DNA from: Fimbriimonas ginsengisoli Gsoil 348
GTDB taxonomy: Bacteria > Armatimonadota > Fimbriimonadia > Fimbriimonadales > Fimbriimonadaceae
Assembly: GCF_000724625.1 (NCBI RefSeq)
Contig: NZ_CP007139.1
Span: 4,650,001-4,714,000, forward strand
Direction of reading: 5' to 3'
DNA length: 64,000 bases
Shown: positions 4,764 through 4,910 of the stretch, one piece after another
Numbering within the stretch: position 1 is the stretch's first letter
Layout: each line of letters begins with the position of its first letter
Notes under the pieces: model-generated
Databases searched by the model: none
Seen by the model: the letters and a program-made list of their open reading frames with translations, nothing else
Told to the model about the DNA's origin: nothing
Position numbers and translations under genes: made by a program

Positions 4764-4910
4764 GGGGCGTCGGGCGCTAGGCGTTGGGCGTTGGGCGTTG
4801 GGCGTTGGGAATAAGGTAATGCCCAAAAGCTAAACAACGCCTCAACGCCTCAACGCCTCAACGCCTCAACGCCTCAACGCCTCAACGCCTCAACGCCTCA
4901 CGCCCGACAC
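4764..4910. repeat. Large palindromic repeat with heptamer and octamer arms (family R1, copy 1)
   Basis: The left arm has GCGTTGG four times in a row (4781-4808) after GGGGCGTCGGGCGCTAG. The core AATAAGGTAATGCCCAAAAG CTAAAC spans 4810-4835. The right arm is the octamer AACGCCTC exactly eight times (4836-4899), ending in ACGCCCGACAC, which mirrors the left outer end. The arms are complementary (GGCGTTG against CAACGCC), so the whole can fold into one long hairpin. The core recurs near 14115 and 35536. It fills most of the 328-nt gap between divergent infC and fadN; little else but promoters is expected there. Confidence 0.9.

Follow-up and report, generated by a model that had tools for sequence, protein, structure and literature searches.

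Several kinds of bacterial repeat are built from units of seven nucleotides, the STRRs of cyanobacteria being one set of intergenic heptamer tandem repeats. Small dispersed repeats lie in heptamer arrays, and the P6b stem of the tRNA-Leu intron in Nostoc is itself built of repeats. The repeat classes of this P6b stem have been described (PMC4476775). Intergenic heptamer arrays are also found as GGGNATC in Xanthomonas and Nostoc (PMC4692102) and as TAACTGA in Beggiatoaceae (PMC4679880). These arrays were published without an agreed function (PMC4692102, PMC4679880), although inverted heptamer arrays could form stem-loops (PMC4692102).

Small dispersed palindromes are also a known kind of element. 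The best defined are the REPs and REPINs, including the GTAG and CGTC super-families (PMC3733652). Template switching, in turn, is an established route to making or correcting the arms of hairpins (PMC8794818). For Fimbriimonas ginsengisoli Gsoil 348, the genome paper records only 12 transposase genes and no known insertion sequences, and a word search of it found no mention of repeats such as those described here (PMC4072686).

Here, we describe a repeat from that genome in which short tandem arrays flank a conserved core. Its copies form a family that is new and species-specific but belongs to a broadly familiar kind.

Three Copies in the Window

The window is the whole stretch of 64,000 nucleotides that was analyzed, positions 4,650,001-4,714,000 of a single contig of 5,231,762 bp. 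Direct reading finds GGTAATGCC at window positions 4815, 14119, and 35541, followed each time by a 3-nt spacer and then AAGCTA. This is the shared core that a first-pass annotation had noticed, and the short-unit tandem arms that it described can be read on either side of the core in all three copies (Table 1). TRF reports them as arrays in copy 1 (GGGCGTT x6.4 at 4765-4809; CAACGCCT x8.9 at 4835-4904) and in copy 3 (GGGCGTT x6.6 at 35490-35535; TAACGCCT x3.1 at 35560-35584).

The arm units had been said to differ among the three copies. Copies 1 and 3, however, share the left unit GGGCGTT and have near-identical right units (AACGCCTC and AACGCCTT). Thus, within the window, only copy 2 is truly different in its arms. 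Elsewhere in the window, TRF finds 270-bp and 54-bp tandem repeats within long ORFs (49935-50449 and 52211-52371).

Table 1. Positions of the three window copies (window coordinates) and of other repeats in the same genome (chromosome coordinates).
Feature	Position	Strand	Remarks
Copy 1, left arm	4764..4806	+	GGGCGTT heptamers; outer-end variants GGGCGTC, GGGCGCTA
Copy 1, core GGGAATAAGGTAATGCCCAAAAGCTAAAC	4807..4835	+	same in two further unlinked copies (L001, L004)
Copy 1, right arm	4836..4910	+	octamers AACGCCTC x8-9, end degenerate
Copy 2, left arm	14090..14111	+	degenerate, GAGGCGC x2
Copy 2, core AGGAAAGGGTAATGCCCTAAAGCTAGAT	14112..14139	+	profile E=1e-8
Copy 2, right arm	14140..14170	+	degenerate, CACGCTT; weak pairing with left arm
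Copy 3, left arm	35491..35532	+	GGGCGTT x6
Copy 3, core GGGAATAGGGTAATGCCTACAAGCTACT	35533..35560	+	same in L002, L003
Copy 3, right arm	35561..35589	+	AACGCCTT x3
Second family (B)	chromosome 773110, 1827380, 3041727, 3389245, 3735750, 3837811, 4127333, 4577997		
GGTAATGCCATCCAGTTT pairs	chromosome 1599723/1599904, 3463603/3463757, 3865652/3865954		
Octamer-armed palindromes GATTGCTT / AATCAAGC	chromosome 632770, 4079042, 4164505, 4588914		

Copies Across the Genome

The whole-genome pattern search proposed with the first-pass annotation did find further copies. The exact core, GGTAATGCC-N3-AAGCTA, has 8 matches in the 5.23-Mb genome, while the reversed pattern, used as a control, has none; this rules out a chance origin for the matches. 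Searching jointly for left and right arm units revealed many more copies, with the variant core GGGTAAAGC-NNN-AAGCT. At E<2e-7, a profile built from an alignment of 19 copies recovers 27 copies; relaxing the cutoff to E<1e-4 raises the number to 32, and among the weaker rows are some other elements that share the ends of this family. Contiguous reading covered two long stretches, together about 1.65 Mb of the chromosome; the census beyond these comes from the pattern and profile searches.

What the copies hold in common is an asymmetric core, AGGGTAAWGC-N3/4-AAGCT-N-AACGCC. Two distinct cores are each identical in three unlinked copies whose flanks are unrelated, which points to recent copying.

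The earlier view that this is a new dispersed palindromic family is therefore supported, with about 30 copies, no match in Rfam, and no named element found. The Rfam scan of the window at gathering thresholds returned 2 tRNAs only, and the loci of a longer form of the element (below) have no match near the gathering score. A known structured RNA was rejected on these grounds.

Arms that Tend to Pair

The left arm is a chain of 1-12 units of GGGCGTT, with a period of 7. The right arm consists mostly of AACGCCTC or AACGCCTT, with a period of 8 and up to 16 units; in a few copies it is AACGCCC, with a period of 7. The numbers of units on the left and on the right are uncorrelated (Spearman -0.04, n=26), implying that the arms lengthen independently. 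Because their periods usually differ (7 versus 8 nt), the stem would be a series of 6-bp blocks split by small internal loops.

It had been claimed that the arms are complementary in every copy. This holds for copies 1 and 3, which fold strongly relative to shuffled sequences. The z scores for the two strands are -7.5 and -9.1 as DNA and -8.4 and -11.2 as RNA for copy 1, and -2.6 and -3.1 as DNA and -5.3 and -3.2 as RNA for copy 3. Copy 2, however, folds no better than shuffled DNA (z of +0.33 as DNA and -1.2 as RNA).

A further claim, that the fold is conserved while the sequence drifts, finds no support in the three window copies, where copy 2 hardly folds and the arm unit of copies 1 and 3 is in essence the same. 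Nor does the core of the short form help. Compensatory change within its alignment amounts to 1 cell, not above shuffles, and the GC/GC pairs of the core are invariant, and therefore uninformative on base pairing.

The claim fares better in the wider family, since coordinated change of the arms becomes visible only once homologous elements of a longer form join the short form. The long form has 12 exact pattern matches in the genome. It runs from TGTGGACTGTGGCGTGTGGCTTGTGGACTGA through a palindrome of 9-nt units (TGGGACGAATGGGAC...GTCCCATCCGTCCCATC) to GGTAAAGCCTCACGCTA and then the right arm. At loci L268 and L271-L281 of the same genome, a 9-nt-unit palindrome, GATGGGAC...GTCCCATC, precedes GGTAAAGCCTCACGCTA.

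The outer arms of the long form are GGTGTT/AACACC in some copies and GGCGTT/AACGCC in others. Often, but not always, the switch from GGCGTT/AACGCC to GGTGTT/AACACC is made on both sides. The arms are matched in 30 of 37 scored elements (permutation p=0.0006, relatedness not corrected for) and, by a hand count, in 7 of the 10 informative long-form copies. Thus, the arms tend to pair but do not always do so.

The Element Lies Between Genes

Called genes cover none of the 28 strongest copies, apart from overlaps of 1-17 bp with gene ends in two of them; the genes were called by a simple custom hexamer score, so boundaries are approximate. Among the 30 best loci, 12 lie between convergent genes, 7 between divergent genes, and 11 between co-directional genes. 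In the last group, 5 are sense and 6 antisense, giving no strand bias relative to genes, and a strand-specific role as RNA was dropped for this reason. The excess of convergent loci is modest (12 of 30, against a share of 19% among intergenic gaps of 60 bp or more; p=0.007, uncorrected). The two closest copies are 2 kb apart. A composite transposon was considered for this pair and rejected, as the genes in between are ordinary, with no transposase recognizable when they were read by eye.

The convergent excess might suggest a bidirectional transcription terminator, or a stabilizer of mRNA 3'-ends. Copy 3 occupies the whole of a 102-bp gap between the convergent stop codons of two genes (34456-35487 on the plus strand and 35590-36234 on the minus strand), and copies 1 and 3 fold strongly as RNA. 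Such a role would not, however, account for the seven copies between divergent genes, the random orientation within co-directional pairs, or the failure of copy 2 to fold, and no regular run of T follows the hairpins in the copies that were read. We regard it as very improbable.

Alternatively, the heptamers might act as G-quadruplexes, influencing genome stability or the expression of genes in the manner of GGGNATC repeats in Xanthomonas and Nostoc. Left arms of the type GGGCGTTGGGCGTTGGGCGTTGGG fit the G3-N4 rule for quadruplexes, and GGGNATC repeats are reported to be intergenic, near the ends of genes (PMC4692102). But four G3 tracts are present in only 12 of 26 copies, strand bias is absent, and 7 of 30 loci are divergent, an arrangement in which the published GGGNATC-type repeats are under-represented. 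These facts make a quadruplex role quite unlikely.

A Wider Class of Arrays

The arms belong to a larger population of arrays. In the 1.65 Mb sampled, arrays with periods of 7 (51) and 8 (30) stand far above those of other periods. Gaps of 60 bp or more contain 78 of 89 such arrays, although called genes make up about 88% of the sample. Thus, a 7-nt tandem unit is over-represented in intergenic DNA, as it is for intergenic heptamer SSRs. Two arrays of 7-9-nt units that lie within 200 bp of each other tend to be complementary: this is true of 23 of 37 such pairs but of only 9.8% of other pairs, and just 2 of the 37 match on the same strand. The complementary pairs include unrelated units, for example GATTGCTT/AATCAAGC; unrelated palindromes with these octamer arms occur at four places (Table 1).

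Part of the core is itself associated with arrays. GGTAAWGC adjoins arrays of 6-12-nt units at 19 of its 111 sites, 2 of which look incidental on reading; control motifs do so at 0-1 of 52-149 sites.

Other repeats were seen in the same genome. A second dispersed family (B) has the same GGCGTT...AACGCC ends and a different interior, for example CTCGTTAGCAGGACAGAGTTAGATC. The possibility that family B represents integron attC sites was dropped because its copies are dispersed and the order of boxes does not fit. Another repeat, GGTAATGCCATCCAGTTT or its ACC variant, occurs as close pairs, two of them inverted.

Comparison with Known Elements

The resemblance to REPs and REPINs is real. The element is, like them, short, palindromic, dispersed between genes in many copies, and lineage-specific (PMC3733652; PMC3116915). 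It differs in that its arms are tandem arrays and its stem is longer and variable. The conserved part of the alignment of 19 copies contains neither GTAG nor CGTC, the tags expected where the hairpin is unpaired at its base.

These likenesses raise the possibility that a Y1 (RAYT-like) transposase of the organism mobilizes the element, as for a REP, by copying it in the form of a single-stranded hairpin. The genome has 13 Y1_Tnp matches, and the element often lies between convergent genes, as REPs do (PMC3733652, PMC3116915). Against this, neither core nor arms are found within 1.5 kb of the ten of these 13 RAYT loci that were examined, and several of the ten (L081-L090) have palindromes of their own, different from this one, beside the gene. 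With the hairpin base also lacking a tag, mobilization by RAYT is unlikely. The element is not, in any case, the REPs beside the ten RAYT genes examined.

MITEs, too, are short non-autonomous repeats with terminal inverted repeats, and here several different interiors share the ends GGCGTT...AACGCC. No parent insertion sequence was found, however, in the 1.65 Mb read contiguously. No target-site duplication is visible by eye beside the arms, where terminal arrays would hide one.

With intergenic heptamer repeats the element shares its 7-nt units, mostly intergenic position, variable number of units, and patchy taxonomic spread. It departs from them in having complementary left and right arms, often with periods of 7 and 8 nt, and a conserved asymmetric core common to about 30 copies. 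The small dispersed repeats in heptamer arrays and the P6b stem offer another parallel, in stems whose two sides are short tandem repeats of varying number while the fold persists, and in a small core inside the repeats. Here, however, the sequence and phylum are different, the element is not intronic, and it occupies about 30 loci.

The type of element is not entirely foreign to known descriptions, since heptamer arrays between genes have been documented (PMC4692102, PMC4679880) and dispersed palindromes of small size are a familiar kind of repeat.

Distribution in Other Genomes

The exact core is absent from 290 other genomes of Armatimonadota. Of the 84 other genomes of the family, 83 have no match to the profile and the remaining one has a marginal match (E=0.003); a family-wide search for the long form likewise turned up, beyond Gsoil 348, only a 24-base match (E=0.008). 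A pattern scan of 84,980 species, which may leave out Gsoil 348 itself, gave 16 matches, against about 15 expected by chance on our own estimate. Arms are absent at all 16, and one core match in a viral contig is likewise without them. Arrays of GGGCGTT are found in six scattered genomes and in none of the 19 other genomes of the genus. Judged by these sequence searches, the family is species-specific and lineage-restricted.

One of the six genomes (G121, of the same family) has many different intergenic arrays of 7- and 9-nt units (L262-L266); arrays of this type are nearly absent from the two sampled genomes of the same genus.

Of the other 19 genomes of the genus, 18 contain close relatives of the gene upstream of copy 3. 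The downstream gene was found beside none of these relatives, so no empty site can be read.

How the Family May Have Arisen

The copies are probably non-autonomous dispersed palindromes that were copied in the past, and whose ends were then lengthened independently by slippage. Under this model, an agent would have copied the conserved asymmetric core to many intergenic sites in the lineage. At each site, the ends, GGCGTT on the left and AACGCC on the right, would lengthen independently, presumably by replication slippage, to give arrays of 7 and 8 nt. The two ends would begin as halves of a single inverted repeat, and the arms would therefore tend to stay complementary, and could be extruded as a hairpin. 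Template switching between the arms may restore pairing. The difference in period argues against one arm having been copied from the other. No autonomous partner was found in the 1.65 Mb read contiguously or at the ten RAYT loci.

The core is strongly conserved, and this could, of course, reflect binding by a protein, or a function as RNA, instead of mobility. A more speculative reading, and to us a doubtful one, places the element in a class of nested palindromes with arms of complementary 7-9-nt arrays. Here, the palindromes would both spread and be renewed through errors of replication at the hairpin (slippage and template switching), with the core bound by a dedicated factor and no conventional transposase involved.

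Why 7-nt arrays accumulate between bacterial genes has been discussed without an answer (PMC4692102). In this genome, arrays flank a shared core some 30 times, including two sets of copies with identical cores. This means that growth of the arms, pairing between them, and dispersal of the element can be distinguished from one another.
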